From: Antedon bifida | Taxonomy: Eukaryota; Echinodermata; Crinoidea; Comatulida; Antedonidae | Reading direction: 5' to 3' | Length of the DNA stretch: 64,000 nucleotides | NCBI GenBank assembly: GCA_963402885.1 | Contig: OY727097.1 | Coordinates: forward strand, 14,818,001-14,882,000 | In this document: piece after piece, positions 658 to 54,397 of the stretch | Position numbering within the stretch: position 1 is the first letter of the stretch | Layout of the letters: every line of letters begins with the position of its first letter | Notes under the pieces: generated by a model | The model's database searches: none | Told to the model about the DNA's origin: nothing | The model's input: the letters and a program-made list of their open reading frames with translations, nothing else | Translations under genes and position numbers: made by a program

Positions 658-906
658 CTCAGATGTTGGTAGATATAGTTTGTCTTTTCGTAACCGTTGT
701 ATTTCCAGCAGTACTTGCAGCCATTTGATTGGCAAAGTAAGAATCATCATCTGGACAAATTTTTGTATTTGGAGAATGATTTTAGAAGCACCGCTCTTTT
801 CAAATGGGAGACTGTTTTCAATGGTAAAGAGCTCTCCTTGATACACAATGTCCTCAAATGGTTTTCCTTCCAGGGCTTTCCAAAGTATATTCTCTATTTC
901 CTTTAC
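658..906 (-). CDS. Exon: start of COR domain (249 bp, phase 0-0)
   Basis: Acceptor TTATTTTAG and donor GTTAGA bound 83 codons: VKEIENILWKALEGKPFED, GELFTIENSLPFEKSG and LPIKWLQVLLEIQRLRKD. The combination ALEGKP.., .FTIENS and PIKWLQ is the conserved Roc-to-COR passage of Roco proteins; COR mediates dimerisation of the tandem. It is the last exon of this gene in the window and ends in phase 0. The domain continues to the left of position 1. Confidence 0.88.
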
Positions 907-3900: not shown

Positions 3901-6900
3901 CACCTGATTACATAATAGTATGTGCATGTAATGACGTATGAAACAATCGCCCACCTGATTACATAATAGTATGTGCATGTAATGACGTATGAAACAATCG
4001 CCCACCTGATTACATAATAATATGTGCATGTAATGACGTATGAAACAATCGCCCTCCTGATTACATAATAGTATGCGCATGTAATGATTACATACTAAAT
4101 GACGTATGAAACAAATTGTCCACCTGATCACATAATAGTATGTGTATTTCATGACATACAATCGCCCACCTGATCACATAATAGTATGTGTATTTCATGA
4201 CGTATGAAACAATTGCCCACCTGATTACATAATAGTATGTGTATGTCATGACGTATGAAACAATTGCCCACCTGATTACACAATAATATGTGCATGTAAT
4301 GACGTATGAAACAATTGCCCTCCTGATTACATAATAGTATGCGCATGTAATGATTACATACTAAATGACGTATGAAACAAATTGTCCACCTGATCACATA
4401 ATAGTATGTGTATTTCATGACATACAATCGCCCACCTGATCACATAATAATATGTGTATTTCATGACGTATGAAACAATTGCCCACCTGATTACATAATA
4501 GTATGTGTATGTCATGACGTATGAAACAATTGCCCACCTGATTACATAATAATATGTGCATGTAATGACGTATGAAAGAATCGCCCACCTGATTACATAA
4601 TAGTATGCGCATGTAATGACGTAAACAATCGCCCTCCTGATTACATAATAGTTTGTGTATTTCATGACGTATGAAACAATCGCCCAACTGATTACATAAT
4701 AGTATGTGTATGTCATGACATATGAAACAATTGCCCACCTGATCACATAATAGTATGTGTATGTCATGACGTATGAAACAATCGCCCACCTGATTACATA
4801 ATAGTATGTGTATTTCATGACATATGAAACAATTGCCCACCTGATCACATAATAGTTTGTGCATGTAATGACGTATGAAACAATCGCCCACCTGATTACA
4901 TAATAGTTTGTGCATGTAATGACGTATGAAACAATCGCCCAACTGATGACATAATACATATTGTTTCCAATGAATTGTAACAATTTTGTACTGTTTAAGG
5001 AAAAATATGTGATGACATATGTACCCTTTGTTGTCTTTCTTGTTCAGTTTTTCCAAGGCTCTCATAATGTGTACCAATCAGCATTATCTTGTTTTTCTGT
5101 CCTTTTCTTACGTTTACAAAAACTGAACGAATCCAAAACAGAATGAACTGAAGATTTGTCATTTGATGTTCATATTTTTCTCCCTATAACACAACAACAA
5201 ATATGAACACCATTTATTTTTTGATTAATATACAGGTAGGTTTAAAAAATCATTATTATTATAGCACCTATATTATAATAGCACTAAGCTAGAATTTGTT
5301 TCTCTATCTCCTAAAACCGTAAGTCTGATGCTACCGCCGTTCGAGTTGGGGCACCTTTTAACTCGATCCCCTTTCTCCATTAGTATTATTAGAATGGCAA
5401 ATTTGTACGAAAAATGTGTTTTTTAGACTAATTTCTTTGCAACTGCCAAACAATACCTTTAGCAATCCTCAGCATTTTCCCGCTTAAAAGTCTTAGTAGA
5501 TATTATGAGTTACACCCTGCTTGTTCACGGAATACGGGAAATATCTACGTTCTGGTTCCATATTCCATGAGGCCGAATTTCGTAAGAACAAGCAGGGTGC
5601 AACGATATTATCTCTTAGTGTACACATCTAAGCAATTTTGGACAAGAGACGATTACGATTAGCTTTTTTTACGGGCCGTCGAATACACAGGTTCATATTC
5701 GATTGTCTGGGATGACCAAGCCACAACTGTGCTCACCCTGGTTACCAACAAGGGCATATTCCCATACTTCGGTTTGGGTTTAGTTTTTTCACTCAGTTTC
5801 TACTGTATGATCAGCGTTTCGAGAGGTTTCACAACATAAAGCGCTTTATAAATCCAGGATATTATAATATAAATAATCTGCATATTTGTTGTTAGCCACT
5901 CACAATGACGTGCCATATACACATATCCATTTCTAGAACATGTATACACTTAATATTTATCATATTAGTTAAACATATAATCATATATCAGGCATTTGCT
6001 ATTTCTACAGTTTGAGATAAAGTAAAGAATAACATGAGGGAAACATTTTATTTATTCAACAATTACATAAAACATTGGAAATTTGTCAAATCTACTTACA
6101 GTTGTTGGATCCAGAACTTTAGCTAGGGCATTAAGATCTTCATTCAGGTTAAATACCACACATACAACAGCATAAGACACCATGAATATCTAATAAACAT
6201 TGACAAAACAACATAATTAATCAAATAACATAATTGTCAATATTATATTAAAAATAGTTAAAACTAACATTTTTTATTTCAGTGCGGATTTTATATATAG
6301 TAAGCCAAAAAAACCTAGATTAATTACTAATATACAGTAAATATTTGTCCTGACATCTTTAACCTAAAAAGCGAAGAATGTACACTGAATATTCAATTCA
6401 TAATTTACCCGTTGTATCACATGGTAGATCGGTTGCCCTCCAAAGTCCCAGATATTCATAACAAACTTGTTGTTATCTTCTTGAGAGTCACCACCTTCTC
6501 TTTCAGAGCGAAGTTTGCTTGCAACTTGGCCAAACATCTGTTTAAGAATTTCTTGATTTTCTTGATAAAATAACAATAGATATGACAACAGTTTTAATCA
6601 TTGCAGCAAATTTTTATAGAAAATCCTTATCATATCATTCAATTTAAATTGAATGGATTTTGTTAACACTTTAGCAACATTTGGATAGAATTGAAGTAGT
6701 AATAACATTACAAAAATAAAATAACAAATGTGAAAAATTGCTACAATTAAATAAAACACTACATAGAGTTTTGAATGGGTGAGAGTGTGAGAACAAATGT
6801 CAACGATATTTTTGTGGAAATGAATACATCACCTGCCTTTAGATATAAAGAATATTAAAAAAATGTTGTTAAAAATATAACAGAACTTTTATTATCTATA

Positions 6901-9900: not shown

Positions 9901-12900
9901 AATATTGACATTTGACCCTTAATTACAAAGGATTTTTTTTTCATAAGGTGATTGAATAGACACTTATAATCATAAAAATGTAATAAAAGACCAAATTGGG
10001 CTTCAATAAATTTGTTATAATACATATACATAATACATTGTTGTAATTGGTCAATTTTGAACTTTGACCCCTTATATCTCGAAAACGCTTCCTATCCTGA
10101 TCGATTACCTTCCATATTCGTAATCTACGGAAAATTCTGGTCTAGAAAAGTTGGATGGCAATTTGTCCCCTTTCGGGTGGTGATTCCCCCCTCCTGCCAC
10201 CGGACTATATGTTAATTTCATTGATATTGCTATTTCAGTGTTATTCTTCTTATCAAATGTATTTCTTAATATGGGGCAAACTTTTGACTAGCAAAAGCTA
10301 TTTTGTTTGTTCTAATTTGCTTGTTATTGGTAAATAAAAAAAGAAAATATTAATGGCTATTAATGTCACTGGAGCTCATTTCAACCTAATTGTGCAACAA
10401 AGCATTGAACATCAGTTGATACAGAACATACTAAATACACTGGATATTCTTTATACAACAAAAGTAATTCTTTTATTTTATTTAGATAGTCTATTCAGGG
10501 AGAGTCTATTAAGAGTCTGATATCAATGTAACTTGCTTGATAGTTATGTTCATTGCCAACTTTAAAGTTTGTATCATTTTCATATGACATTCAATACAGT
10601 GATTTCTTTAATTTTGTCAATATTTAGCATGAGATGGGTTTCAATATCAGCACAAGATATTTTTTCAGCACTAAATAAATCTATATTATAAGTGAGAGAG
10701 TTTGTACGTATGTTTGTTTGTTTGTTCGTTATACACATTTTTGTTACTGCACGTAACCTTACATATGGGGTATCAAAATGACCGGAATTGTACCGGGAAG
10801 GTTCTAAACTACATTTCAACATCATCCATCCAAGTTAGGGACCAAAATGTGGTCAAAATGGCCCACTTTCCTGCACTTTCGATGTTTGTTCGTTATACAA
10901 ATTTCTGTTTCTGCACTTAACCATACATATGTGGTATCAAAATGATCGCAATTGTACCCAGAAGGTTTTAAACTACATTCCAAAAATTCCCTGAGTCCTG
11001 GGGTTTTTGTTGGGGGTGGTGTGGTTTGTGATGTCATTTTTGCTTGGGCTCGGGGTTGTAGGCTATCGAATTGTAAAATTATACTACAAATGTTTTACAG
11101 TATTTGAATTATCCTCAGGAAGGCGTTTGGGAAAATATGGATATAGATATACATATTTTAATCATTAACCAATATGACAACTATTCATTTACACATTTAG
11201 CAAAGTACTTTAACCATATCCAGCTATTTTTCGGTCTCTTGGATTGTCTCATTACAGACATCCATTTCCTGTGTGAACATATACACGTTCTTTACTATTA
11301 ATGTGTTTTACTACTATATTTGAACACCATTCGCCATCTAGGATCCAAGTTAGGGGCCACAATGTGATCAAAATGGCCCACTTTCGATGTTTGTTCGTTA
11401 TACAAATTTCTGTTTCTGCAAGTAACCATACATATGGGGTATCAAAATGATCGCAACCGGGAAGGTTTTAAACTACATTTCAAAAAGTCTGAGGATTTGT
11501 TGGGAGATTGAGTGTGGTAGTTGGGGTTCAGAAGATAGTGGGGATGAAAACTGCCACTGAGGGATTATGGGTTGAGGGACATGGCTAACATAATTTTTAC
11601 TGAAACATTCTTAAACACATCACCAAGTATATGGGGTGTGTTTGAAGGGGGAGGAGGAGGAGCGAAAATACTGGCGTAATGAAGTAGCCTATATGAATGG
11701 AATTGTAATAGGAAAAGTTACTACATTTGAACTGTCCAGGGGAGGAGTTAAGTTTTGTTGATTGTGGTTTGGATGGTGAGAGGAGAAAGAAGGCTGGGGG
11801 CCGCAGTATCAAAATTAGATATTTTGATTATCAGCCAAAATGACACCTATTTATTTACACAGTTTACAACGTACTTAAACCATAGGCCTATCGTAGCTAT
11901 GTATACCCTCTCAATTTGAAGTTGAATTGAATTTGTCCTGGGAAGAATTTTTTTTTAAAGAGTGTGGGGTGTTATTGAGGAGGGGTGTGGGGTGTTATTG
12001 AGGAGGGGTGGGGGTTGGTGAGTATAGGGAGGTACTGGTGTCGGGTGTTACAGTATGTACTGAGAAGGCTTTAAACTAATTTTAAAACCCGCCCTGGGGC
12101 GGGTATAATTGCTAGTAAACAATAAAATATAATATAATTATCAGTTATTGTATGGACAGCAGAATTAAATATAAAACAAATTTCAAATTAAATGCATACC
12201 CTTCCTTCGAGGTGATGACATTTTTCTTTTTGATGCTTTACTAGGTTTGGTTTTCTGCTTGGCCATTGATGCTCCCATTGTGTTTTTCTCTCTTTTGTTT
12301 ATTTCTAAATAATTATTAATAATTTGATGTTATATTATCACAAGCATAATGTAGAGTATTAACATTTAGCACTATATGTTCTATAATTAACTACTAACTT
12401 TCTGTGCTATTAACAGCAACACAGTTGGCAAGTGGTTTTATTTTTGTATGGATTATTTAGTGGTTAGAACAGCCTCCTAGTCATAAAATGGAAAGAAATA
12501 AATGAGTTTGATCCCGTCTCAAACTTATAGTTTATCTTAGGTTTATCTGTATTTTCAAAGGTCAAATTCACAAAAACCTTTCTTGATCACAGAATAAACA
12601 AAAACATATGAGATGTGTTCTATCTACCAAAACTTAGATTTTATCTATTCATTGTTTGTTTTTTACCAGGTCTGTTTTTTGGCAGTGATGGTCCTGCTCC
12701 TGTTGGGTTTTCTTCTCTCTGGCGGCTACTTTCCAACATTTGCTTTACTGTGATATTAGTGACAGCATCCTGATACACATTGAAAGCTTTTAATAAGAAT
12801 TCAAGAAAATCATAAATTATGTGATTCACTTTAAAAGTATTTTAGTAATATAAATTAATAGCCAAACATAGCATAATGTACATCTGCCTATACACTATGA

Positions 12901-15900
12901 AATAGCCAAACAATCTCATGTTCAAATTAAATATGTTTAATAATAATACATCATGTATTTGTTGAAAAAGGTGTATATATCAGGGTGAATATAGTGTCCA
13001 CATTTAGCACAACATGCAAGATTCTAAAGGCAGTCAAGCATATAAACATCTTCCAATACTTTACAAACCAGTTTAACCACCGCTTTCAAAATACCCTCAG
13101 ATGAAGGTAACCAATCAACTGAAAATCATACTTTTTTTTAAACAACATCATACATACATGTATCTGAATAAAGTGAATACTTACAAATATCCTGTGTTGT
13201 TTCTTTCAACATTTCTTTGTTACTGGCATCTGGTGTACACACCGTTGTTTTAACCATTGCATCTGTTATTATATGCACTGGATTAAATCTATGACAAAAT
13301 GACACAAAATAATTTGATGGTATACTGCAATTACATTGTTTTTACGTTGCATTATAATCTTATCTTAAAACCCTCAACATACCCAGAACACTAAAGGGCC
13401 AAATACTTTAATCAAACAATAATTTTAATAGTAATTTTAATCAACTGTATTCTTACTCTTTTACATTGTGATATTATTTAGATTATTTATGTTTAGATTA
13501 CTTATAATGATCCCAATTAAAATAAGATATTTAAGCTATTTTGGCTATGTGTATGGGTGACCGGAATACAAGATTTGCTTTGCTGGTCACTCTCAGCAAT
13601 ATTTGCTATGTATTTTGATATTATTTTATGATGAAATGATAAACTATTCAGAAAACATATTTTAAATGTCTTATTCTTGTAATTGATACTGCAGTAACAA
13701 CTGTATGTAACAGTTTAAGCGGTTTAATGAAATAGTTAAAAAAAAAAAATTAAACCACTTAAAAAAACCCAGTACGGTAACATCTATTAGGCCACAATTT
13801 GACAATGGCTAAATTTTAAACATCACCAAATTCAATGTCACCATATTTTGAGGTTCACAATATCCTGTTGAAAACAAATTGAAAGCACCTGTTAATGTTT
13901 CTATCAGCACTTTTTCACTTATCCTTACACTTACAGACAGTATAGACCCTAAAATGTGTGTTCACAGGAACTATGTGTGTACAGTTATATACCAATCAAA
14001 CAAAAATACATCTACGCAATAAAATAATATATAGGACACTGTTCCCAACTGCAAGTAGCAAACAATCAATCAACAAAAATTGATACGATATAATATAATG
14101 TGCTTACTCTTTTCTTAAAAGAGAATTGATAGTAGAAGTTTTTCCAACATTCTCAAGTCCTACAAAAATAGTTCTTCCTTGATTAAACTCTGTTTGTCCT
14201 TCTTCAAGTGCATTTTGAAATGCTTTCACCGCATCAGGTCCTCTTGCCAATATCTCCTCTGGAACATGCATATCTTAAAATAAACAAAATAAATTACTGT
14301 ATAATTTCCTACTTTCATTTTTTCATGGAAATTCTAAAGATATTGGTATCTGAAATATATGCCTGTCATTGGCAGAAAATACAGTGCCAACTCATTATTT
14401 CACTAGGCTAGTAAACAAGACAGCGTGGTAACCTGAATAGCAGAATACAATCTGAATTTTCTACAACTAGAAAATTCAGATATATCTGAGATCCGAGTTT
14501 TCTAGACCATTAAACAGTGCATACATTTATTATAATCTTTATCAGGATTTTCTTTTCTTTATTTATCCAAAAAATTGTAAGAAATAGCATATTAACAGGA
14601 GTGCAGGAGATCACAAAAATATTGGGAGATAACACTCCTACAATTATTGGGAGAGTTGGGAGGTCTTAGTCAGTCTTGAAGTTAGCATACAGCCAGCTGT
14701 CTTCACTTACTTTCAATTGTATTTGCCAACTCTTTTTCATCACATTTCCTAAGCGCTTTCACAAGTTGCGAACGCTTGGACTCAGAAGTTGATAATTTTA
14801 TGGCCCAAGCATCCAGCATGTTATAAGTCATTTCAAATTCCTTATCTGGATTATCTTGTTTAAAATGATCGATTTCTGCCATGGTAAACTCAAGATTTAC
14901 TGCTAGTTGCTCCCAATCAAAGACCTTAGTGGCTATGTCCATTAATTCTTTGGTTGTTATATCTAAATAAAATAAGATATTCCCACAATTTGCAAAACAT
15001 TCAATGCGAAAGGGGATACATATAACACAGTGTTCACAGCTCCAGCATGTCTAGTAAACATGTTTGTCTCCAAAACACTGTGCATAGGCTTAATTGAATC
15101 TTTGCTGAAATATTTTCAGGAAATATTATTAACAACTTTGCTACTGACAATTGACAAACACGCTTTCATTTTTAAAAAAACACACACACACAAACCCCCT
15201 CACATTTCAGCCAACCTCTAATATGAAAAAAACCAGCAAATCAGTGTAAACTGTACCTCTAGTATAGTAAAAAGGTTTTTGAAGAATATTCATACCTGAT
15301 GATGTGATATCTATGAATGGTAAAGGTCCGCCTAAAAAAGTAAAATGCATGAGTAAAAAAAAGTTAATTTTGAAGGGTGTTACAACCATTAATGTAGAAC
15401 AATCCACCGCTAATGTAGTAAAACCGCCAGCTATTATATAGAAACACCTTATGTATAAATAAAAATCAACATCAGCTAATGTAGAAACGGTCAACAGCTT
15501 ATGTAGTAACAGTCAACAGCTTATGTAGCAATGAAAATTGCCTCCCAGCTTATACTGTAGTTACTATATTGCCAGCTAATGTAGAAAATGTTATATATTT
15601 TACAAAAATGTCATCATGTGCAAATGCATCGATCTTTACTTAGCTATCAGTCTTTCAACCTTTCGTAAGCAACCAACTTTCTAAAAGATCACACATCGTA
15701 AGCAACCATCTTTGTTAAGGGACCGATTTTCATAATCGACCACCTCACGTAAGGGATCACCTCCTTTCATAAGGGACCGCTTCACATAATTGACCACCTC
15801 TCATAAGCGACTACAACTCTTAACGACCACACATCTCGTAAGTGACCACCAGTTTTCTACATTAGCGGTTGTAACAAAGGGTTTAAATGTTTTAATTTCA

Positions 15901-30900: not shown

Positions 30901-33900
30901 GATTATATCTATGTATTTCGGGTTACTTTTTGTCTGTTTTTTTATGTATCTATGTAAAGCGCCCTTGAGCATGTTTTTTTCAAGAAAATGGCGCTATAGG
31001 CCTATAAATGTGGTATATTATTATATTATTCAATGCGATTGCAAAATTGACTACAATACAAGGGTCGGGGTCATAATCGTTTGGTATGCCTAACTAGTTC
31101 ATACATAAAGCTGGTCTGATTATAAGGTTTCACTGAAATGCATTTTTTTCTGATAAATCAGGTTGAAGAACTATACATCTTTCTCAAACTTTGAGAAAAA
31201 TGGCAGCCATTTTGAACTATATTTACCATCTTGAATTTTTAAAAGTTGAACAATTAATTGTTATTTTCTCCAATGATAGTTTCTTGCAAAATATAATTAT
31301 GTTCTAATGACTGTGGTTGAACACATTATTTGCCAAAATCGTATGCTTTAATGATGTTTGGGTAAAATTGAGAGAAAACAGCCATTTTAGTTATAATGTA
31401 ATTTAGCAATTAATTGTCTTCATCTCGCTTTTTTCTCCATTTTTTATATGTTGTTCAGATTGGTCTTAGGAAGTACTACCACAACAAAAATAAATTCTGT
31501 TGTAATTTTGTCTAGGTCAAACCGTAGTTTGACCGGACTATTATTACAAAGTGCGACAGCTCGATTACTACAAAGTGTGACGATTATTACAAAGTGCGGC
31601 AGTACAAACGGGGTTTACAGAGTAATTAGATGCGATGTTTTTTTTCAAGACAGTACGTTATTTTATGTCCTTGCTTGAGTCATGGAGCTATAAAATTAGT
31701 TATAGCTCCTTGCTTGAGTATTGAGTTCTTTAGTGAGATCTTGCTTATTATTAAATTATCCAGGACCAGGGCTTTAAATGACTGCGACATATTAACTATC
31801 TTTGCTTGATCTGACTTCCCAATGCCAAGATTAACATTGATGGTGAATGTGGTGTTTCAAGCCAAGTGAGGGGTACGTGCAGTTCTCTACAATACAGTCA
31901 TTCTCGCTACAAAGTAGGCCTTTGTGATCTATAAGACCCGCAATTTGAGTTGGTTCATTTAGGTATGTTATTACCGGCACCCCTTTAAATTATAAAATTA
32001 AACACTTTTTTTAAATCACACTGAATTATATAGCACCCCTTATAATTAATGTTTGTTAAACTTACATTGTCTGCAAGATCCAAATTAACACCTGCCTTGA
32101 GTAAAATAGTGCAAGTATCTGTGTGGCCGCTATATGCAGCCGAATGTAAAGGTGTCCAACCATCCTGAAATATTACAAACATTATGTTATAGTATTTTTC
32201 ACTCTACAATATTTAATATCGTACTGAAATCAATTCGATGTGATCAATTAAAAATAACTTTATGGATTTAAATAATGCTACATTGTTAAATTAAATAAAG
32301 ATTTTTAAGAGCGGTTGACTACAAATATCATTGATCAACCTATTCCATTAAAAAGTGGCCAAATGCCAAAGAATGGATTTTCTTCATACTTTAGTAATTA
32401 ATTACACTTTTGGTAAATATAACAAAACTGAAATATATTTGAAAACAAATTAATGGTTACCATGGTAACAGGTGTGTGATTTTACCATGTTGGCATGTGA
32501 ATTTTGCTCTTGTTTTAATATGGACGAAAAAGAATTTGTAAATTGTTTTTGTGAAATCTTTTTGTACCAATCTTGCTGTACCAATTTTGCTCTAATGTAA
32601 AACAAACATTTAGGTACATCAATTATTGAATTTAGGAGATACCATTATTTTTCTTAGGGGTGTTTTCAGGAATTTCATACATTGGACTTTTTTTTTTATG
32701 TTTTTCAAAGAGTTATAAACTCCGATGGTAACACTTCAAAAGCAACCATGGTGCAGGCATGGTTGGTTGCTCTTGCTGTTTCCATTATCGTGGGGAATCA
32801 TGTAATTTCTGTGTAGTGTTTCTAGATAAATGGTTGAAATTTGCAAAAATGGATTGCTTTGTAGACTAAGTCAATTAATAAATTATATAATTCTCTTTTA
32901 GTTATAGATGATGGCCTTGATATTTTTTCTGATTCATTGAATCAGTTTAAGAACAAAGTGTTAAGTATTTTATAATTTTCTTATGCTACCTTTTTTTTGG
33001 CATTGTTCATGAATTTGTATCCGTTTTGTGTTTACCCTCCTGTTATTGGCGAATTTATTTTGCTGTTGGTTGGGTTTGGAAATAAATAAATAAAAAAATA
33101 AATAAATTCGCTCATGTTATTTGTAATATAGAAATAGGGGATATAGATTTTTCAGTCCAAAATGTTTTTTTTGTTATGTTAAAACATACTAAAATATAGG
33201 CATATATATAGATACTAGTATCTAAAATTAACCCTGGGTTGTTTATTAGTAATTACTTATTTTCCATAAATTCAAAATGGCTGCCATTTGAAAACTTTTC
33301 CCTAATTATCTCTATAGCTACTACTTTTTTTGTAAAGACTGTCTTAAACACATACGAACATCCTTAAAATTCAGAATAACTAATTTAATTTTGCCTTTGA
33401 AGTCTAGGTCTAAGGTCAATTTAGTAAACTTTTTTTGATTAAGAATGTATTAGGTACAAATATAAATGTGGCATTAAACCTTTAAAATAACATTTAATCT
33501 GCTTTCGATCTTCTGGAGACACAGGGTTAAAGGTCAAATGCTTAAATGACACCCCCCTCCCCCCCACACTTTTTTAAATTATTGAATAAGTCATTTTACT
33601 GTTACAATAGTTATTCACTTTGACAAAAAATGGATGGAAACGAAAAATTATTTAACATAATAAAATCATAATTTAAAAAAAAGAGTAGTAAACTGGAAGC
33701 CCACTGTCTGAAATTCAATGAGTTTGTATTTGATTTAGGCCTACTGTTTTTTCATTTTTTATAAGCTAAATCATTATTTTTTAAATAACCTGATTAAAAC
33801 TACAAAATGACTTCAATGTTTGATTTTACGTAATATCCTTTATAGTATCCGATTAAATCATAGTTCAAGAATTTAGATTTTCACTCCGATCAAGTATATG

Positions 33901-42900: not shown

Positions 42901-45880
42901 AGCTTTTGGGCATGACAATGTGCCCTGGTATATGCACGGTTAAATCGCCTATGACACTAACGCAATCATTAAACAACTATATTCTACAAATAAACATGTC
43001 AGGAAATGACAATGTACTTGCTTAGTATATATACCAATGTCTTCATACTGCTGTTTTCAGTATGCTGCTATTTACGTACATGATACAGCAACACCTTCCC
43101 CGTGATTATGTTTACGATAATATGTAAAATGTATGTTAAACTATACATTGCGTCATCAGATATGTTATCTATCGGGCTGATAGTTATATAGTAAAAACAA
43201 ATAATACTATGATATAAAAAGTACATAATGAAAAATGAATACACGGATAACCTCATTTCGTTAACGTCTGAACTATACTAATATTTAAATCAATTAAAGC
43301 TCATCAGTCATACATTATAGTGTTTCGGATTTGACAAAAACTGTTTCGCAAATCAACTGATTACATACCGATTATCAGGAATCTTAAATAAACAATTGTA
43401 GGAAGACTTACTGTGAGTTTTTTGCATTTAAATTATAATGTATGAGGTTAATTATGCCTATTTCAAATAACTGTTTAGCCGATTTTGTTTCTCAGTCTCA
43501 CTCTGCAATCGCGAAATTTTCTTTTAATTCTAAGCTCACATAAACGGGCAATGAAATCGTTAATAAAAAACATAAGCTTATTCAGTATATCTATATTAGT
43601 TATTTATTTATTTTTTTTTTTCTCGCTTTACTTGGTTTCATCGTATCAAAAGGCCTATTAGTGGATACTATTTAAAAAATACAAACAAAGGGTTACTATC
43701 GATGGTTTCCCTGTATAGCTTAATGTCTGTTTCTATCAAAACTATCAGATCAACCGGCGGACGCTTTTCTTTAAATAATGTTGCTGATGACTTCTGACGT
43801 TAATGCGTCGGTCGTAAATTGGAATATTTTTTTTAATATTTTAATTTTTTTTTTAAAAAGAGGCGTATAAAAATCAATTTGCATGATTGATTTCTGTAAT
43901 ATAAATTGTGCATGTAAAAGCGTTGTTTCCTGTTTTCATTATTGAGGCCGACAGATCGAACATGATGTTATACAGGCCATGATTGTTATTATACAAATAA
44001 TGATATGAAAATAACTATTGTTGTTATGTTGTACCATGTTGTTTTGAAGTATAATAATATATTATATTAAAGTTTATACTTATATGGATTTTATAAACAC
44101 ACTTTAGCTTCAATTATGTCAACAAACGACCAAATAATCCTAGGCCTAGCAAGGCTAAAACGCCTAGGCTAGGCCTAGCCTAATACTAACAGGCCTATAA
44201 TAGCTAGACCTAGGCCTAGCATATGAATCTCTTGAGCAACGAAATAGCTAAATTGCCTCAACACACTCCACTGGGACATGAAAACCACTGATTTCGCATC
44301 GTGATATTCTACAAAACACTTGATTTTCATGTTCCCACCTAAATATCTCGGCTATTATAAATCGGATTTTTTTGGATAGTAGCTCTAAATAAACTGTAGA
44401 CAATACTGAACATTATGATATATGTTTGAAATTGTAAAGTTACAAAAAGTTTGTGTCATTTTACGTTTTAAAACTTACCATCCATTGCCCGCTGACAGTG
44501 TGAGGTCGATTTTTTACCTATTTTCTAAAGCACCACAGTGTTTTATTTGCAATTTAAGATCACTTGTAGGTCATCAATCATTTTGGATAGTTTCTTAAAA
44601 GAAAGCTGAATATTCATAGATTCCTTACATACTTTTCTTATGAGCATTGGCTTAAAATAGACTGTGTCAAAATAGCAAAATCTATTTTGAAAAAATCTAA
44701 AAAATCCTAAAAAAGGCGGCAAAATTCAAATAGGGTTTGCCTGTGTTATCAAGTCTTCACTTGACAGACCGTTGGATTGTAGCTAAGTTTGGGGTTAATT
44801 TTTTCATTATATAATTGTAAGTAGCATTTTAATTTTTATATCATTCTAATGTTTGATATATAAGGAACAATTGTTAGGTGTTATTTAGTTCTATATGTCG
44901 TGTTTTATATTCACAATTGCCAAATTAAGACACCTATGTTTTAATGATAGCGAGCTGGGATCTACCATTTTTCACTCGGGTAATGGTTATGTTTATCTTT
45001 CTGTGACCTGTTTTGTTTAATGAATAGATGGTAATTATTACAAAGTCTGGAAATGTTCATACTATACTAGTTTATGTCATTTTAATTTCTTTGGTTAAAA
45101 AATGTAATCAATAATCGTGGAAATTAGTTGTAGTCATAATGGTTGACCCCCCTATATAATGGACGATGACAAGACTTGGGTTGCATGAACTTGGTATGAA
45201 CTTATAAGTAGATAAACAGCTCAATAGGTACATATTAAAAATCACTGTTTGGTTGCAAAATTTGCACCAAGAGATTCATATGTACTAGCTTGGCTGAAAG
45301 GTAAAATTTCGACAGACAATTTGAACTTATCTAGGCTAATTATGGTTTTTCCAACGATTCCACATCTTGTAGAGATGTTCCCATTAATTAATAAAAATCT
45401 TACACACGATCTAAAGCTAATTTAAATGCCTTTTTGATCTAAATTAGTACATATATCTCTCCAGAAAAACTAATCATAGCATTAAAATCGCCGCGAAAAT
45501 AAGTGGCGCTGTTGCATTTCAAAAGCAATAGTATAAAACAATATATTATTTTTCCAAACGCGAAAATATTTGTTTTTTCGTACACGGAAAAAAGTACCAT
45601 TAAACGATCGTTTAAAAGTGCGTACTATTGCACGCCATGTGACCACATTCGTCCTATCAAATGACAGGAATTTATTTAGGTGTTACATAATACCGGTAGC
45701 CGGTTTAAATTTGAAAATTAAACCATTGTTTTAATCACACTGAACTATACAGCACCCCTTAATAATGTTTGTAAAACTTACATTGTTTGTAAGATCCAAA
45801 TTAGCACCTTTATTGATCAAAATAGTACAAACATCTGTGTGGCCATTACTTGCAGCAGCACACAAAGGTGTCCATCCTTC
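658..45880 (-). CDS. Split gene: ankyrin-Death-Roc-COR (Roco-family) protein, 14 exons found, partial at 3' end
   Basis: Fourteen minus-strand exons, each bordered by AG and GT, join with consistent phases (0,0,0,0,1,1,1,2,1,1,1,0,0) into 592 open codons. Product order: ankyrin units (residues 1-168), linker (168-180), Death domain (180-264), Roc GTPase with P-loop GLENVGKTS near residue 302 and switch DFGGQ near 467, then COR start (510-592). Roco proteins are multidomain GTPases that act as signalling scaffolds; Death domains mediate homotypic assembly, and ankyrin repeats bind partners. A cytoplasmic signalling or innate-immune role is inference. No kinase or LRR exon was seen. The Roc segment between exons 13 and 14, which should hold the G4/G5 motifs, is missing, so an exon in the 906-6100 intron was missed or lost. 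The 3' end lies beyond the left edge; the true 5' end is uncertain. Confidence 0.85.
1335..2265 (-). mobile_element. CR1-like LINE remnant (RT C-terminal part and 3' UTR)
   Basis: Reading leftward from about 2265, broken frames give a LINE reverse-transcriptase C-terminal region: LLGIII, KLDLHVFDMVSKASWRMF, then VWHGEITKKVTSKIESIQKR, the usual VWH...IE.IQKRA pattern. A stop interrupts it. The A/T-rich sequence down to about 1335 looks like the 3' UTR and ends in an AATAAATAAA-type tail on the minus strand, like the LINE at 50.4-52.0 kb. It lies inside the intron before the COR exon. Confidence 0.65.
1555..1606 (+). mobile_element. L2-type 3' tail hairpin
   Basis: The short segment CCTTGAGCACTTTG followed by GTGCGCTTTATAAA resembles the conserved 3' stem-loop end of L2-like LINEs and their SINEs. 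No attached coding region is seen on this strand. Confidence 0.4.
2275..4960. repeat. 51-bp minisatellite, about 50 copies
   Basis: A tandem array with a 51-bp unit that begins CGCCCACCTGATTACATAAT and ends ATGACGTATGAAACAAT. Copies differ at a few sites (CCTCC for CCACC, GATCACAT for GATTACAT, GTCATG for GTAATG). Four variant blocks carry an insertion with ATGATTACATACTAA (near 2877, 3097, 4081 and 4347), and neighbours repeat in the same order, so there is higher-order structure. Because 51 is divisible by three, all minus-strand frames stay open for long distances; that is a property of the repeat, not evidence of a protein. The array sits in the intron between the 6.1-kb and COR exons. 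Confidence 0.97.
4961..6099. other. Intron with small hairpin; no exon recognised
   Basis: Contains an inverted repeat (CACCCTGCTTGTTC at about 5513 and GAACAAGCAGGGTG at about 5587) and a GCGCTTTATAAATCC tail-like segment near 5840 resembling an L2 3' end. I looked here on the minus strand for the missing G4/G5 exon of the Roc domain and did not find it. Confidence 0.5.
6100..6189 (-). CDS. Exon: Roc strand beta-4 (90 bp, phase 0-0)
   Basis: Acceptor TTTATTAG and donor GTAAGT surround 30 codons: IFMVSYAVVCVVFNLNED then LNALAKVLDPTT. The hydrophobic strand followed by V-F-N-L/D-L is the typical element after the G3 motif in Roc domains, and the LAKVLDPTT tail resembles the lead into the G4 segment. 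The expected next block (W..SI... and a T-H-R-D-like G4) should come from an exon to the left, which I could not locate. Confidence 0.82.
6409..6560 (-). CDS. Exon: Roc switch II, DFGGQ motif (152 bp, phase 1-0)
   Basis: Acceptor ATCAAG and donor GTAAAT. The product starts ENQEILKQMFGQVASKLR, passes through an acidic loop (EGGDSQEDNN) and ends KFVMNIWDFGGQPIYHVIQR. The W-D-F-G-G-Q block is the Roco version of the G3 (DxxG) motif, in which the Q or R after GG is close to the catalytic position of other GTPases. The exon ends in phase 0, which the next exon needs. Confidence 0.9.
6958..10205. mobile_element. 3.25-kb foldback/TIR element 1
   Basis: The left end (from GTCCGGTGGCAGGAGG at 6958 to about 7125) is repeated inverted at about 10040-10205, roughly 165 bp with very few differences. 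The flanking dinucleotide TA (6956-6957 and 10206-10207) is a likely target duplication. No transposase is visible, so it is nonautonomous. Inside are a 5' block of related units (7150-7700), a tandem of about 160 bp (7870-8790) and a roughly 500-bp direct duplication (about 9075-9540 and 9590-10080). It lies in the intron between exons at 12.2 and 6.5 kb. Superfamily is uncertain; TA target and long arms are compatible with Tc1/mariner-like elements. Confidence 0.88.
7870..8790. repeat. Tandem repeat of about 160 bp inside element 1
   Basis: Five to six diverged copies begin near 7880, 8110, 8265, 8425, 8590 and 8745. Each has a core such as GGCAAATCCATA, GTTCCTTAAGGAT, CACAGGCAGC and TTATGGGGCTTAATG. 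Short frames through it encode nothing recognised. Confidence 0.75.
10680..12115 (+). mobile_element. Nonautonomous Helitron, 1436 bp
   Basis: The 5' end starts with TC after an A (TCTATATTATAAGTGAGAG), typical of Helitrons. The 3' end has a 7-bp GC hairpin (CCCGCCCTGGGGCGGG at 12088-12103) followed eight bases later by the terminal CTAG and a flanking T, so insertion was between A and T. No Rep or helicase coding is left. The inside has two to three copies of a unit of 150-400 bp with CATACATATGGGGTATCAA and GGAAGGTTTTAAACTAC. Confidence 0.88.
12200..12304 (-). CDS. Exon: lysine-rich loop of Roc domain (105 bp, phase 1-1)
   Basis: Acceptor TTATTTAG and donor GTATGC. The product reads EINKREKNTMGASMAKQK followed by KPSKASKRKMSSPRRK, a strongly basic low-complexity stretch with S and T sites that might be phosphorylated or act as a basic localisation signal (inference). 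It is in frame with neighbours on both sides. The downstream intron (6561-12199) is filled by a Helitron and a 3.2-kb TIR element. Confidence 0.7.
12455..12545 (+). mobile_element. tRNA-derived SINE fragment
   Basis: A-box-like TTTAGTGGTTAGAACAG followed at about 35 bases by the B-box-like GAGTTTGATCCC. Same design as the SINE copies at 18.7-19.1 kb. Confidence 0.5.
12667..12786 (-). CDS. Exon: Roc insertion segment (120 bp, phase 1-1)
   Basis: Acceptor ATTAAAAG and donor GTAAAA border 40 codons: SFNVYQDAVTNITVKQMLES then a polar tail rich in R, E, P and G. No motif is recognised. Invertebrate Roco proteins often carry a low-complexity loop between the P-loop and the DFGGQ switch, and this exon plus the next fit that position. 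Both donor (GTAAAA) and acceptor are weaker than those of the other exons, so one border may be a few bases off, but the joined frame is open. Confidence 0.65.
13185..13288 (-). CDS. Exon: Roc domain after P-loop (104 bp, phase 2-1)
   Basis: Acceptor GTCATAG and donor GTAAGT. It reads EFNPVHIITDAMVKTTVC, which matches the region after the P-loop in Roco GTPases (FNP.H..TDA), followed by a charged stretch ending in KETTQDI. The block corresponds to switch I and the adjoining strand of a Ras-like fold. Phase 2-in and 1-out agree with both neighbours. Confidence 0.85.
13289..14107. other. Intron; nothing recognised
   Basis: AT-rich intron with a poly-A run near 13740. No repeat family or exon was identified. 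Confidence 0.5.
14108..14273 (-). CDS. Exon: Roc GTPase G1 / P-loop (166 bp, phase 1-2)
   Basis: Acceptor TTTTAAG and donor GTAAGC. The frame reads NMHVPEEILARGPDAVKAF, an amphipathic helix, then the beta strand TIFVG and P-loop GLENVGKTS, followed by TINSLLRK. G-x4-G-K-T is the nucleotide phosphate-binding loop of Ras-like and Roc GTPases, and K-T contacts the phosphates and Mg. The segment before the P-loop (RGPDAVKAF..ALEEGQ) is the usual lead-in in invertebrate Roco proteins. The donor splits the last codon after two bases, and the next exon starts with the matching base. Confidence 0.9.
14711..14962 (-). CDS. Exon: Death domain (252 bp, phase 1-1)
   Basis: Acceptor TTATTTAG and donor GTAAGT bound about 84 codons. 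The product has the Death-domain pattern: an early helix LMDIATKVFDWEQLAVNL (the conserved W in D-W-x-x-L-A), then F.MAEIDHFKQDNP, MLDAWAIK (the conserved W of helix 4) and SQLVKALRKC near the end. This six-helix fold assembles with other Death domains in apoptosis and innate-immune complexes. The whole domain is contained in one exon, which makes it a portable module. It sits N-terminal to Roc here, unlike DAPK, where Death is C-terminal. Confidence 0.88.
15296..15331 (-). CDS. Exon: 36-bp linker between ankyrin and Death domains (phase 1-1)
   Basis: A short exon inferred from acceptor CTTTTTTAG and donor GTATGA. In phase 1 it reads GGPLPFIDITSS and joins both neighbours in frame. It has no domain signature; its support is the splice borders, the length divisible by three and the fitting phase. 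If it is skipped the reading frame is still kept, so alternative use is possible. Confidence 0.6.
15379..15875. mobile_element. MITE with GTTACAACC termini and two internal motif arrays
   Basis: The ends are inverted copies: GTTACAACC(A/G).TAATGTAGAA at 15379 and its complement at about 15850-15875. The left half repeats GCTAATGTAG or GCTTATGTAG about six times; the right half repeats a TAAG-N-GACCACC motif about eight times. There is no coding capacity. It lies about 50 bp upstream (gene sense) of the 36-bp linker exon. Confidence 0.65.
16489..16579 (-). CDS. Exon: terminal ankyrin unit 5 (91 bp, phase 0-1)
   Basis: Acceptor GTTAG, then EGKSALDCYNENSCDKYD followed by a lysine-rich helix ending in IINILK, with donor GTAAGTAC. 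The opening (G.SALD.Y) is the beginning of an ankyrin unit, and the degenerate second half is what is usually seen in a capping repeat at the end of an ankyrin stack. The exon changes phase from 0 to 1, the phase the linker and Death exons downstream need. Confidence 0.8.
16580..17896. other. Intron; no gene
   Basis: AT-rich, with a CAAA/AACA-rich simple stretch at about 17140-17175. Nothing else recognised. Confidence 0.5.
17901..18447. mobile_element. piggyBac-like MITE, 547 bp, TTAA target
   Basis: TTAA at 17897-17900 and 18448-18451 directly flanks inverted termini AGATGTATTGTCCCTT and its complement AAGGGACAATACATCT. The TTAA duplication is characteristic of piggyBac-type insertion. No transposase is present. 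Its right edge is about 16 bases from the donor-side border of the ankyrin 4 exon. Confidence 0.85.
18464..18580 (-). CDS. Exon: ankyrin repeat 4, expanded by an internal hairpin (117 bp, phase 0-0)
   Basis: Acceptor TTTACTAG, then 39 codons: NGDNAMHLCARAN at the start and FFIQEGHMDIYNKNK at the end, followed by donor GTTAGT. The ends match an ankyrin unit (G.NA.HLCAR... and QEGH.DI.NK), but the unit is six residues longer than the 33-residue norm. The extra length coincides with an 18-bp perfect inverted repeat (18495-18512 and 18523-18540, loop 10 bp) that encodes the residues around LYEEHRNTFVFF. A piggyBac-like MITE (17901-18447) starts about 12 bp into the downstream intron, leaving the donor intact. 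Confidence 0.8.
18495..18540. repeat. 18-bp perfect inverted repeat inside a coding exon
   Basis: TCCTGTATGAAGAACACA at 18495-18512 and its exact complement at 18523-18540, separated by 10 bases. It lies wholly within the ankyrin 4 exon and accounts for its extra length. Confidence 0.95.
18727..18900 (+). mobile_element. tRNA-derived SINE, copy 1
   Basis: B-box-like GGGTTCAAGTCCC near 18778-18790 and a 3' part with GCTCTCTGATGCAA and CATAGTAGTTACA shared with the next copy. The A box is degraded. Confidence 0.6.
18930..19142 (+). mobile_element. tRNA-derived SINE, copy 2
   Basis: A-box-like CTTAGTGGTCAGTAGAG, B-box-like GGGTTTGACTCC, then a body ending in CTCTCTGATGCAAAGC and TATAGTAGTTACA, the same tail as copy 1. 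The two lie head to tail. Confidence 0.7.
19165..19305 (+). repeat. Degenerate GGACAACTACCC array
   Basis: About seven diverged copies of GGACAAC(T/C)A(C/T)(C/T) spaced 15-25 bases apart. Too short and diverged to assign to a family. Confidence 0.6.
19306..20453. other. Intron; no exon recognised
   Basis: AT-rich. A minus-strand open stretch of about 90 codons at 19804-20073 has no domain signature or matching splice phase. Confidence 0.45.
20454..20549 (-). CDS. Exon: ankyrin repeat 3 (96 bp, phase 0-0)
   Basis: Acceptor TTTTTAG, then 32 codons beginning DGNTPLLLAARSGQTACC and ending in HADLYCINK, then donor GTAAGT. The TPLLLAARSGQ core and the closing A-D-L pattern fit an ankyrin unit; it is one residue shorter than the typical 33. 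The exon is phase 0 on both sides, so it can follow the 32.1-kb exon and precede the 18.5-kb exon without a frame change. The intron upstream (20550-32065) is about 11.5 kb and contains most of the LINE and MITE debris of this window. Confidence 0.85.
20550..21960. other. Intron; no gene
   Basis: Only low-complexity AT-rich sequence and unassigned unique DNA, becoming CpG-richer after about 21880 just before the LINE fragment. Confidence 0.45.
21976..22700 (+). mobile_element. 5'-truncated LINE (RT C-terminal part), one frameshift
   Basis: The frame from 21985 encodes KDLGVYFDHKLNFDYHI, LYKSLVRPILEFNCCVWAP and IESVQRRATKSL: the thumb/C-terminal region of a CR1/jockey-type reverse transcriptase. 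At about 22310 the frame shifts by one base; the second frame (about 22312-22628) continues with YRRLRTDMIQIFRIINGLD and VVDSWNSLPPNVV and stops at 22628. The 3' UTR follows. Length is far below that of a full LINE, so it was truncated on insertion. Confidence 0.85.
22779..22837. repeat. Twin perfect palindromes
   Basis: AGAGCCATATATATGGCTCT (22781-22800) and, 10 bases on, the 25-base copy with arms AGAGCCATATAC (22811-22835). Both extend by TC/GA on the outside. They are tandem copies of one hairpin with a GAGTAGAA linker. Confidence 0.95.
23283..24032. mobile_element. MULE-like MITE, 750 bp, 80-bp TIRs, 9-bp target duplication
   Basis: The inverted ends match over about 80 bases (CGCCGTGGTTAG at 23283, its complement ending at 24032). 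They are flanked by TATTTAATT (23274-23282) and TATTTCATT (24033-24041), nine bases with one mismatch. A 9-bp target duplication with long TIRs is typical of Mutator-like elements. No transposase is seen. Confidence 0.85.
24372..24620 (+). CDS. Possible small membrane protein (unrecognised)
   Basis: 82 codons from ATG at 24372 to TAA at 24618-24620: a basic N-terminus (KLKLEIKKFRNGYQ), one hydrophobic span of about 22 residues (FIYALPTIFVIYLYYYVIF), then a polar C-terminal part ending LDLPEWYR. This resembles the N-terminal anchor of a type II membrane protein, such as a Golgi enzyme, but no catalytic part follows and no splice donor is convincing. It may be chance. Confidence 0.2.
   Translation: MNQSNGKLKLEIKKFRNGYQSVGFIYALPTIFVIYLYYYVIFQSVTYSIPNWSGRVYPVYYHNMNDVHFLIEGRLDLPEWYR
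25018..25631. mobile_element. MITE built from a repeated GACGATCGGGCCC motif
   Basis: The direct repeat GTTTTAACG lies at 25009-25017 and 25632-25640 (9 bp, exact), a target duplication. The inverted termini share CAGACGATCGGGACCACGGA. The motif AGACGATCGGGCCCAA occurs about 7 times in the left part (25023-25178) and about 6 times in the right part (25436-25570) before the inverted terminal copies (25578-25622). Spacers between copies are irregular, and the 250-bp middle is unrelated. Short apparent proteins through the array are artefacts. Confidence 0.9.
25641..26120. other. Intron; no gene
   Basis: Contains GCCTAGGCCTAGGCC runs near 25706. Nothing further recognised. Confidence 0.4.
26121..26263 (+). 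mobile_element. LINE C-terminal zinc-motif fragment
   Basis: One short frame reads SGHCTICHSGEIEIIQHFLFN and then CQALNAIREI: C-x2-C-x9-H-x4-C, the zinc-knuckle-like motif at the end of R1/CR1-type LINE polyproteins, ending at TAA. No other part of that LINE is attached. Confidence 0.65.
26264..27699. other. Intron; no gene
   Basis: AT-rich. TATGCAAAT-type stretches recur at about 27138-27170 and 27540-27570, and a small inverted repeat CATAGTCAAT/ATTGACTATG is at about 27325-27352. An ACAC run is at about 27478. Confidence 0.4.
27700..28340 (-). mobile_element. Non-LTR reverse-transcriptase fragment, minus strand
   Basis: Reading leftward with several frame breaks: VWHEALWATMNKYN at about 28280-28240, then PQGWLLSPTLFNIFFERIMN at about 28140-28075, then the core FADN(I) near 28020 (the catalytic YADD box; here the second D is N), GGEEELA and LGGMSLRQC. 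These are RT blocks in order (VW.EALW, QG.LLSP.LFNI, .ADD). Stops and frameshifts make it a dead copy. Confidence 0.75.
28630..31015 (+). pseudogene. L2-like LINE with deleted reverse transcriptase
   Basis: Starts with an AP-endonuclease N-terminus (CLNVRSVKRKTLAINDYI, LDIFAITGTWLGTSIDN), then VGDLNFHLDVSIDCNSW and VREPTHIIGHIPDVVIV (GDLN/FH and the C-terminal D.V box of the endonuclease). It continues with the linker (KYERKWRK, YYSEKIVDHKKLFKLSRHLF) and VPNDFKHAIIKPLIKN, the RT start. The next residues, YCNSLLYGLPNSTIKTLQKV, belong to the end of the RT, so the whole RT core has been deleted at about 30042. Frame breaks are present. The 3' end has the L2-type tail (AAGCGCCCTTGAGC and GGCGCTATA) at about 30955-31000. 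Confidence 0.85.
30304..30505 (+). repeat. CCACAAATGTGAAAACG minisatellite
   Basis: About 9 copies of a 16-30-bp unit (CACAAATGTGAAAAC followed by AACCA, GCATCAC or GTATTAC), inside the 3' part of the L2-like LINE. Confidence 0.9.
31016..31539. other. Intron; no gene
   Basis: Unassigned DNA with a short palindrome GGTCAAACCGTAGTTTGACC at 31516-31535, which abuts the duplicated block. Confidence 0.4.
31540..32290. repeat. Segmental duplication copy A (with functional ankyrin exon)
   Basis: Shares blocks with copy C (49885-50308), such as TTATTACAAAGTGCGACAG, GATGCGATGTTTTTTTTC, GATCTGACTTC and AATCACACTGAATTATATAG, and shares the exon and both intron flanks with copy B (45680-46000). Confidence 0.85.
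32066..32164 (-). CDS. Exon: ankyrin repeat 2 (99 bp, phase 0-0)
   Basis: Acceptor TTTCAG, then 33 codons (DGWTPLHSAAYSGHTDTC... ending GVNLDLADN), then donor GTAAGT. It carries the canonical TPLHSAA and SGHTD ankyrin signature. About three quarters of residues match the 45.8-kb exon, and the flanking intron (stretches such as CTGAAATATTACAAAC on the + strand) is also shared, so the pair arose by segmental duplication rather than by exon-level convergence. A third copy of the flank, without the exon, lies at about 49.9-50.3 kb. Confidence 0.88.
32291..35040. other. Large intron; no exon recognised
   Basis: AT-rich. Contains AAATAAATAAAT near 33078, a C-run near 33550, and a perfect hairpin AAGGCTATCAAA/TTTGATAGCCTT at about 33984-34010. 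No protein similarity was seen. Confidence 0.4.
35085..35990. repeat. Dispersed repeat of about 0.9 kb, copy 1
   Basis: Matches 58060-59000 in direct orientation over most of its length, e.g. TAGTGTTGCTCTGTA, CTAACATTCAGTGCT, AATTGAGATCTGCTCAATTC, ATACGTGAAGCATAATTAAC and GAGTTCAACTTAGATTTTT at the end. The reading frame of 126 codons at 35054-35434 has no counterpart in copy 2, so it is not conserved. Confidence 0.85.
36461..36570 (+). mobile_element. GTCGGTCGG short element, copy 1
   Basis: Bounded by AGTCGCGTGC and its complement GCACGCGACT. It has CTCACTATGTCGGTCGG and GGTAAACACTAACT in the middle and ATGGCCTTGTTTT after it. The same parts recur at 52.8, 53.45, 54.4-55.1, 58.0 and 59.65 kb. 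Confidence 0.75.
37311..37452 (+). mobile_element. L2/CR1 LINE 3' coding fragment, internally deleted
   Basis: DTLKELHWLPVQHRIVYKIL followed by LIISLY, then a stop and NLDSLKQLLKTHLFAQAY. Both halves are the LHWLPV..RI.(F/Y)KIL and LK.HLF..A(Y/F) blocks from the end of L2-like LINEs; the intervening residues are lost. Confidence 0.7.
37453..39242. other. Intron; no gene
   Basis: Includes a GC-richer patch around 38340-38450 with GCGAGCGAAGTGAGC and GGGGCCAGGGAACCC. No function recognised. Confidence 0.4.
39243..39760. mobile_element. MITE of about 520 bp with TAAGGCATTTAAT ends
   Basis: Left end TGAGAATCAATAAGGCATTT and right end complement are inverted. Inside the ends, CCGTCTTAAAATTACGT..ATGTTTCGATAAAT appears inverted at 39281-39325 and 39680-39720, and again in direct orientation at about 39555-39620. 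No coding. Confidence 0.75.
40278..40303 (+). repeat. (AAT)n microsatellite
   Basis: Eight or so AAT units. Confidence 0.95.
40637..42875. mobile_element. 2.24-kb nearly palindromic foldback element 2
   Basis: Left end GTCTAGGACCTGGGTC at 40637 and its complement ending at 42875, flanked by TA (40635-40636 and 42876-42877). The right arm (about 42075-42875, 800 bp) matches the left end to about 41410. The left arm has one extra direct copy of an about 515-bp unit (41377-41890). The turn is near 42075 (TGATATATCA). No transposase. Internal units relate to those in elements 1 and 3. Confidence 0.92.
43480..43650. repeat. Duplicated block, copy 1 (pair with 46200-46380)
   Basis: TAAGCTCACATAAACGGGCA and ATGAAATC...GTTA correspond to CAAGCTCACATAAACCGGCA at 46241, with similar sequence on both sides (a TTTATTTAT stretch and CTTGGTT). 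Confidence 0.7.
44135..44225. repeat. GGCCTAG-rich palindromic run
   Basis: A dense cluster of AGGCCTAG/CTAGGCCTAGC motifs, some self-complementary. The same octamer is scattered through the window (e.g. 25706, 48985, 60880). Confidence 0.8.
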
Positions 45881-49890: not shown

Positions 49891-50308
49891 CAAAGTGTTA
49901 TTTGACGATTATTACAAAGTGCGACAGGGAGTTTACAGATAGTTATTATAGCCTAATTATATGCGATGTTTTTTTTCCAAGACAGTTTTTCAGGAATCGA
50001 CTCTATTTTTGTCCTTTCTTGAGTTTCGGGATCATTAATTTGATGAGATTTGGCTTGGAGGTATCCAAGTCCATCTTTGGTTGATCTGACTTCTCAATGT
50101 CAAGATTAACCTTGATGGGGCAGCGTTGTTTCGAATCATGGTGCAGTTCTCGACAATACAGTTATCCTCACTACAAAGTAGACCTGAGTTGTTTCATTTA
50201 GGTATGTTATTACCGATACGCCCTTTAAATTGTAAAATTGGCACTTTGTTTTAATCACACTGAATTATATAGCACATATTAGTATTAATGTTTGTAACAC
50301 TTACATTT
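49885..50308. repeat. Segmental duplication copy C, ankyrin exon lost
   Basis: Follows copy A block by block (TTATTACAAAGTGCGACAGG, GATGCGATGTTTTTTTTCC, GATCTGACTTCTCAATG, AATCACACTGAATTATATAG) up to the splice-donor complement ACTTACATT at about 50298. There the expected exon is absent and unrelated repeat sequence begins. Confidence 0.85.
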
Positions 50309-50377
50309 TCAGTGTAAATTATGATAAAGTGTTGACGGGAGGACGTTCTGTCGATAGAGGGCCAAAATCACGTATTT
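50309..50377 (-). mobile_element. Repeat fragment replacing the lost exon
   Basis: GACGGGAGGACGTTCTG...GATAGAGGGCCAAAATCACG matches the complement of about 59965-60010 (GATTTTGGCCCTCTATTGG and CAGAACCTCCCGT). It marks a dispersed element end next to the break in copy C. Confidence 0.6.
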
Positions 50378-53500: not shown

Positions 53501-54397
53501 AAAAGTTAAGTTAAGTTAAGTCCAAGAGCATTAGTTCATAAGTATAGGCAGACCCGGAAATTTCTGGTAACAAACTAATTTTTTCAGGAAAGGTCGAGAA
53601 CTATGATTGGAACATCATACTAAAAGTCCCGAAAAATCCTCCTTGTGCTCTCCGAGAAATCCAAGATGGCGTCCAAAATGGCTGCCATTTTAAATTGGTC
53701 TATAACTTTGTAACCGCTTGTCGTAGAGTATCGATTTTGGTGTCAAATAGTTCACAATATATACATTCCTATTTTCTCTAACAGAAAATTTTGTCAAAAA
53801 ATGGCCGCTACTAAAGTTTCTGGCAGTTTGACCTTTGACCTGGTCTTATCATATCTCGGTAATGGCTTGTCATAGAGAATTAAGATTAGGCCCAAATTGT
53901 TCAGAACATGCATATTTTTATTTGGTGTAATGAAATATTTTATCCCAAAATGACCGGAAGTGAGGTTATTGACCTCTTATTGACCTATTCATATCTCTTT
54001 ACCGTATCTCAAGAAATATTTGTCGTAGAGCATTACTTTTGGTGTCATATTGTTTGGAACATATACATTTCTATTTAGTCTAATACAACAGTTTGCCCTC
54101 AAATGCTCGGAAATAAGTTAATTTATTGAAAACTTAAAAAATCAAAGAGCTGCATAGGCAGAGGATATGAATAATGTAGGTAAAATCAAAATCAAAGTTT
54201 TAACTCTGCCTTAAAACATGTTTTGTGCATAGCACATCATCAGGTAAAGTGAATTGTTACAAAAAGAAAATATAAAGTCAATAAATTACAAAGAATAACT
54301 GTCAGTGGCTAATCAAAGTTGGTTAAGTAAACAAAAGACAATTGGCAAATACCTATGTACACAGCACATATCCGACCATTTATATGCAACTTTGAGT

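Follow-up and report, generated by a model that had tools for sequence, protein, structure and literature searches.

A tandemly expanded ROCO family with the order ankyrin-Death-Roc-COR-Death and one-repeat ankyrin exon cassettes in the crinoid Antedon bifida

Repeat-based repertoires include the LRR receptors of lampreys, and ankyrin repeats are contained in DAPK1. In the available part of one review, ROCO proteins fall into LRR, LRR-kinase, and DAPK types, and the human member carrying a Death domain is DAPK1 (PMC6337361). In Trichoplax, ROCO genes number at least 17, and their products are described in the accessible portion of the report as carrying CARD, Death, TIR, and repeats (PMC4104024). 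For brown algae, the part available of the corresponding study describes LRR-ROCO genes in which each LRR is encoded by one shuffled 72-bp exon and diversifying selection is found, and for which a role as an immune repertoire was proposed (PMC11378527). According to the accessible text of two further sources, the sea-anemone protein NG3 combines kinase, Death, and TIR with Roc/COR as called by SMART (PMC5094078), and a MyD88-like protein of Aplysia carries a ROCO domain (PMC9334734). A description of an ANK-Death-Roc-COR-Death gene or of an ankyrin exon library was not found in the open-access literature searched, the available part of PMC8195603 included, and entries with this order may exist in protein databases; Roc is not mentioned in the portion available of PMC6321704 and appears in that of PMC7159879 in the reference list only.

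In the genome of the crinoid A. bifida (assembly GCA_963402885.1; 315.6 Mb on 27 contigs were searched), we analyzed a window, that is, the whole stretch of 64,000 nucleotides at C10:14818001-14882000 (contig OY727097.1), which had previously been interpreted from its letters alone as holding a 14-exon gene with ankyrin units, a Death domain, a GTPase, and the start of COR. With regard to the gene model, this sequence-only reading was reproduced exactly: 14 minus-strand exons, running from window position 45880 down to 658 and joined by splice sites and phase (Table 1), give 1899 nt or 633 residues free of stops, all introns are GT-AG, and the phases agree at every junction; the minus strand had not been named in the earlier reading. 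The window truncates the gene at both ends, leaving the reading frame open 5' and 3'. A domain search of the joined 633-residue protein against Pfam returned Ank_2 (3.8e-24, above cut-off), Death (1.7e-11; 44.5 bits vs a cut-off of 22.6), and Roc (4.6e-11; 43.4 bits vs 27), and the proposed Death domain, P-loop, and DFGGQ motif are all borne out within one frame. The ankyrin assignment held for three of the five exons in the window, which encode clear repeats, while ank4 and ank5 were assigned by eye, with no ankyrin called by Pfam on either exon singly, and the array turned out to be longer than proposed, with three more exons upstream. The P-loop DNA pattern (up to two mismatches) had a single match in the window and none in any of 100 shuffles. 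In a sequence-only search of the PDB, the ankyrin alignments of EHMT1 and MIB1 spanned query residues 1-150 and 1-153, respectively, which aids the by-eye assignment of ank4 and ank5, the Death part matched the Death domains of ankyrin-1 and RIPK1, and Roc matches were weak (best E 0.039); an Rfam search returned no match.

Table 1. Exons of the ankyrin-Death-Roc-COR gene and a cassette relic, in window coordinates.
Feature	Description	Position	Strand	Assigned by
ank1	ankyrin, 33 aa, phase 0-0, cassette-family member	45782..45880	-	
ank2	ankyrin, 33 aa, phase 0-0, cassette-family member	32066..32164	-	
ank3	ankyrin, 32 aa, phase 0-0, kept in paralogue P1	20454..20549	-	
ank4	degenerate ankyrin-like repeat, 39 aa, identical in P1	18464..18580	-	by eye
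ank5	ankyrin cap-like	16489..16579	-	by eye
Death domain 1	Death exon	14711..14962	-	Pfam
Roc P-loop	GLENVGKTS	14108..14273	-	
Roc switch I		13185..13288	-	
Insert exon 1	phase 1-1, rapidly evolving, lies between the exons of switch I and II	12667..12786	-	
Insert exon 2	phase 1-1, rapidly evolving, lies between the exons of switch I and II	12200..12304	-	
Roc switch II	DFGGQ	6409..6560	-	
Roc exon		6100..6189	-	
Roc exon, G4-like	GTHYES, without the canonical Asp	5025..5183	-	
Roc end and COR-A start		658..906	-	
Relic	downstream flank of an ankyrin cassette, exon absent	50073..50310	-	

Beyond the window, ten more in-phase exons follow within 10 kb downstream, up to a stop codon, and encode COR, linkers, and three Death domains. 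The last exon in the window, by itself without a Pfam match, was correctly recognized as the start of COR, as COR-A scores 3.6e-12 (above cut-off) once the out-of-window exons are added, and only then; the three downstream Death stretches jointly reach 3.4e-21, with Death 4 alone slightly below cut-off (21.4 vs 22.6 bits). The three upstream ankyrin exons lie on the minus strand at C10:14905695-14905597, 14913431-14913333, and 14920422-14920324, about 42-57 kb above ank1 and out of the window. The extended order is ANK (8 exons seen)-Death-Roc-COR-Death-Death-Death, spanning at least about 109 kb. Some of its introns are long, reaching about 11-14 kb inside the window and about 42 kb between ank1 and the next exon upstream, and no first exon or start codon was detected in the extended model. 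A Pfam scan of stop-masked minus-strand frames, covering 20.6-64 kb of the window minus short gaps around ank1 and ank2, returned neither a kinase nor any other additional domain, and the 5' end of the gene lies beyond this range. In a control stretch, the same scan placed Death above and ank3 below the cut-off and missed ank4 and ank5, so single weak exons elsewhere could escape it. NACHT, the NTPase of NLRs, is likewise absent from the Pfam matches of the protein part seen.

The position of Death domain 1 ahead of Roc, as had been proposed, is secure because both exons lie on one strand with a 437-nt intron between them, which also rules out that Death and Roc are distant or on opposite strands. 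A chance alignment of fragments was ruled out by the phases, the Pfam scores, and the conserved paralogues (see below). As Roc is followed directly by COR (4.6e-11 and 3.6e-12, respectively), the gene is a ROCO member. The G1 P-loop and the G3 motif (DxxG, here DFGGQ) are both present. In Roc, the G4 motif is THxD, with the Asp specifying the base. This Asp is missing in the window gene and in two paralogues (P1 and P7), which read GTHYES. Its absence suggests altered nucleotide binding, and with this degenerate G4 the predicted GTPase may bind nucleotide weakly or in an altered manner; the change is a departure in the active site that leaves ROCO family membership intact.

Like DAPK1, the gene unites Roc-COR and Death within one animal protein (PMC6337361, part available), along with ankyrin repeats. 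A DAPK contrast had been drawn from the order of Death before Roc, and it stands in so far as Death, C-terminal only in the DAPK type, is here found between ANK and Roc; it was incomplete, however, because three more Death domains come after COR. By domain order, the gene is thus not a DAPK, from which it further differs in the many tandem copies of its family, the single ankyrin repeat per exon, and the lack, in the part seen so far, of the N-terminal Ca2+/calmodulin kinase of DAPK. With the ROCO proteins of Trichoplax it shares the fusion to Death and repeats in an animal, although the accessible portion of that report names no ankyrin domain and describes no exon-cassette library (PMC4104024). 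Similarly, NG3 and the Aplysia protein unite Death with Roc/COR in invertebrate immune candidates, but TIR or kinase replaces the ankyrin array, and the available text describes no array of such size (PMC5094078, PMC9334734). In anatomy, the gene resembles the brown-algal ROCO type, with ankyrin replacing LRR: both have a single repeat per symmetric, frame-preserving exon, present in many copies, whereas the algal exons are LRR exons of 72 bp in phase 2 rather than ankyrin exons of 99 nt in phase 0, and the algal genes, as far as the accessible part of the study goes, are LRR-ROC-COR only, without Death domains (PMC11378527).

The gene is one of many. Searching the genome with the P-loop exon, at least 33 exons with at least 95 % identity were found among the best 150 scored of 249 candidates (a lower bound). 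Of these, C10 carries 13 (11.74-16.15 Mb) and C7 carries 20 (12.07-17.83 Mb); every one is minus-strand, and none of the 33 contains a stop. More distant matches form additional arrays on C1, C7, C8, C12, C15, and C16. Among the best 150 Death matches listed, 84 fall into the C10 and C7 arrays, all minus. Of the 33 close P-loop exons, 30 are preceded on their own strand by a Death match at a distance below 3 kb (C10 10/13, C7 20/20) and 22 are followed by one within 35 kb (C10 13/13, C7 9/20), and P-loop exons without a partner may reflect the restriction to the best 150 Death matches. Death before Roc is hence a family trait (30/33 close P-loop exons). Three paralogues were compared exon by exon, initially in pieces of 15-16 kb each that leave several ankyrin exons outside: P1 (C10:14.449-14.480 Mb), P2 (C10:15.750-15.765 Mb), and P7 (C7:15.037-15.053 Mb). 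Exons in the expected order and strand numbered 20 of 24 in P1 (unmatched: ank1-ank3, lk2), 20 of 24 in P2 (ank1-ank4), and 18 of 24 in P7 (ank1-ank4, lk1, lk2; an ank4 match on the wrong strand was excluded), and the aligned parts are free of stops. A further P1 piece contains ank3, such that the order ank3-ank4-ank5-Death-P-loop is retained there within about 6 kb. Roc-COR dN/dS amounts to 0.47 (P1), 0.47 (P2), and 0.37 (P7), which marks these exons as selected coding sequence. The insert exons share 38-59 % identity among paralogues, and Death 1 is 47 % identical to that of P7 as compared to 96 % for the P-loop exon.

Several copies show peculiarities of their own. The window copy diverges from P1 directly after Death 4 and has another ending (C10:14811541-14811100; about 3541-3100 in L009); P1 stops a few residues past Death 4, and the altered C-terminus apparently arose via insertion. 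In P2, the third Death exon is seemingly duplicated (C10:15750876-15752412), and the number of Death domains may therefore differ among copies. Three Death matches and one P-loop match at C10 14.45-14.46 Mb recur at 16.137-16.147 Mb with an offset of exactly 1,686,840 bases, which points either to a segment duplicated recently or to an artefact of the assembly. Single-frame ROCO genes also occur in arrays (C15:11.74, 13.46-13.55, and 17.20-17.33 Mb); among 149 listed matches, 32 that cover the later Roc part lie in ORFs of at least 600 aa (30 on C15 and one each on C8 and C10). One such protein (L029 660-3530, 956 aa), in which the P-loop and DFSGQ are separated by seven hydrophobic stretches, apparently is a GTPase divided by a membrane domain.

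Within the window, a 46-nt near-palindrome (87 %; 18495-18540) lies inside the ank4 exon and is identical in P1; by eye it overlaps the segment responsible for the unusual length of this repeat. A 51-bp satellite of about 53 copies (2283-4956), with several open minus-strand frames, occupies the intron separating the G4 and COR exons. An inverted repeat of 642 nt with 97 % complementarity (53551-54192 and 56279-56920) encloses a tRNA-Ala-like gene (55333-55407) between its arms. Retrotransposon endonuclease/reverse-transcriptase-like ORFs were noted by eye at 28874-29395 (+) and 50978-51562 (-), for the latter of which Pfam reported no retrotransposon domain.

New here is a family of one-repeat ankyrin exon cassettes with a constrained framework and variable codons. 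Four of the ankyrin exons of the gene are members, namely ank1, ank2, and a pair from the upstream set. Between ank1 and ank2 the similarity extends into the intron flanks (77.9 % over 375 nt), which marks them as copies of each other, and the relic is a copy of a flank without an exon. A genome search with one cassette yielded 131 candidates, of which the best 40 scored all lie within the C10 array (11.67-16.31 Mb), on the same minus strand as the Death-Roc genes (a 41st row was a fragment beside a counted place); since cassette 14913431-14913333 of this very gene is missing from the 40, their number is a lower bound, and further cassettes may lie outside C10. All 41 cassettes examined (37 fetched places and the four in the window gene) have AG, an open exon, and GTAAGT and are splice-competent, and each encodes a single open repeat. 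The exon measures 99 nt in 40 of 41 and 96 nt in the remaining one (L051), and 38 of the 40 99-nt exons have distinct sequences.

Heterozygosity and pooled dN/dS were computed on 37 distinct cassette exons. While the fold residues of the repeat are nearly invariant across these, positions 1, 3, 7, 8, 11, 12, 31, and 32 vary with up to eight residues each, and positions 17 and 22 vary as well, chiefly among similar residues. With variable and framework codons defined post hoc, mean site heterozygosity was 0.060 at framework codon positions 1 and 2 vs 0.212 in flanking introns (p=2.5e-8), 0.202 at third codon positions, and 0.457 in variable codons. Contact positions fixed beforehand, a set taken from designed ankyrins, reached 0.303 vs 0.212 in introns, which is not significant (p=0.18). 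When positions were picked in either of two cassette groups (23 and 15 exons) and tested in the other, one-sided tests placed the picked codons above introns (p=1.3e-4 and 0.032), and the remaining codons fell below introns (p=0.0033 and 1.8e-8); the cassette copies share ancestry via duplication, so that all these p-values are optimistic and overstate independence. Pooled dN/dS was 0.85 for whole cassette exons, 0.92 for the positions fixed beforehand, 1.42 for the post hoc variable codons, and 0.40 elsewhere. Directly before the exon, the last 40 alignment columns differ by 0.036 as compared to 0.225 further up the intron, indicating a conserved splice context.

The gene is one member of a large animal ROCO family whose domain order is ankyrin array-Death-Roc-COR-Death x3, and we consider it probable, albeit well short of certain, that the protein is an intracellular receptor built from exon cassettes. 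It might instead be a DAPK-like regulator of death or autophagy with a shuffled order and no role in recognition, the ankyrin variation being relaxed drift. Apart from the kinase, ANK, Roc, COR, and Death are indeed the parts of DAPK, and Death follows COR in both (PMC6337361, part available); moreover, an overall cassette dN/dS of 0.85 and the lack of significance for the position set fixed beforehand speak for this alternative. However, the framework codons are constrained and some codons exceed intron diversity in the cross-group test, no Pfam kinase was detected on the minus strand in 20.6-64 kb of the window (the 5' end of the gene lying beyond), and at least 33 close copies in arrays contrast with the single human DAPK1 given in the available part of the review (PMC6337361), which makes this alternative unlikely.

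Large duplications and transposons may also have multiplied the gene neutrally, with many copies dying. This would fit the retrotransposon-like remains seen by eye in introns, the copies offset by exactly 1,686,840 bases, the exonless relic, and the altered C-terminus of the window copy, but it is an improbable account of arrays in which 41 of 41 examined cassettes are intact, 0 of 33 close P-loop exons contain a stop, and Roc-COR dN/dS stays below 0.5 in three comparisons. It is more doubtful still, and in our view highly unlikely, that the ankyrin exons lying far from Death 1 are part of a separate transcript and the Death-Roc gene begins nearer. The long introns (about 11-14 kb and about 42 kb), the total extent of the model (at least 109 kb), and the start codon that was not found would be in line with such an arrangement; against it, P1 keeps ank3-ank5 adjoining Death 1, phases are compatible throughout the model, and the 40 listed cassettes all lie in the Death-Roc array and on its strand.

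On the favored reading of a cassette-built intracellular receptor, the ankyrin stack would offer a variable concave face on which a putative ligand is bound, and binding may be relayed to the Roc-COR GTPase as a change of nucleotide or dimer state; the nucleotide state of Roc-COR would govern dimerization as with other ROCO proteins. The four Death domains could then act as a multivalent platform assembling Death adaptors for inflammatory or death signaling. The repertoire would originate from duplication, inside the array, of whole frame-preserving cassettes (about 375 nt each, with their splice context conserved), new receptors coming from copied exon cassettes as well as copied whole genes. 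We read this as a repertoire of intracellular ankyrin receptors, generated by exon duplication as with the brown-algal LRR-ROCO genes and probably with an immune function. The idea of an immune or cell-death switch, already put forward in the sequence-only reading, is strengthened by the tandem expansion, the variable ankyrin codons, and the divergent Death 1, and an immune role would be the likeliest reading of these features. A further-reaching and more tentative proposal, possible rather than probable in our estimation, is a form of animal repertoire immunity based on ankyrin, in which a library of one-repeat exons with fixed scaffold and variable binding face is combined by duplication, and perhaps alternative splicing or recombination, before a Death-Roc-COR-Death switch. 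If true, such a library would in effect be nature's equivalent of the designed ankyrin libraries, and an ankyrin repertoire coupled to Death and Roc-COR in an animal would constitute a new route to diverse intracellular recognition. It would also provide a setting in which both the input (ankyrin face) and the output (Death assembly) of the little-understood Roc-COR module may be tested.
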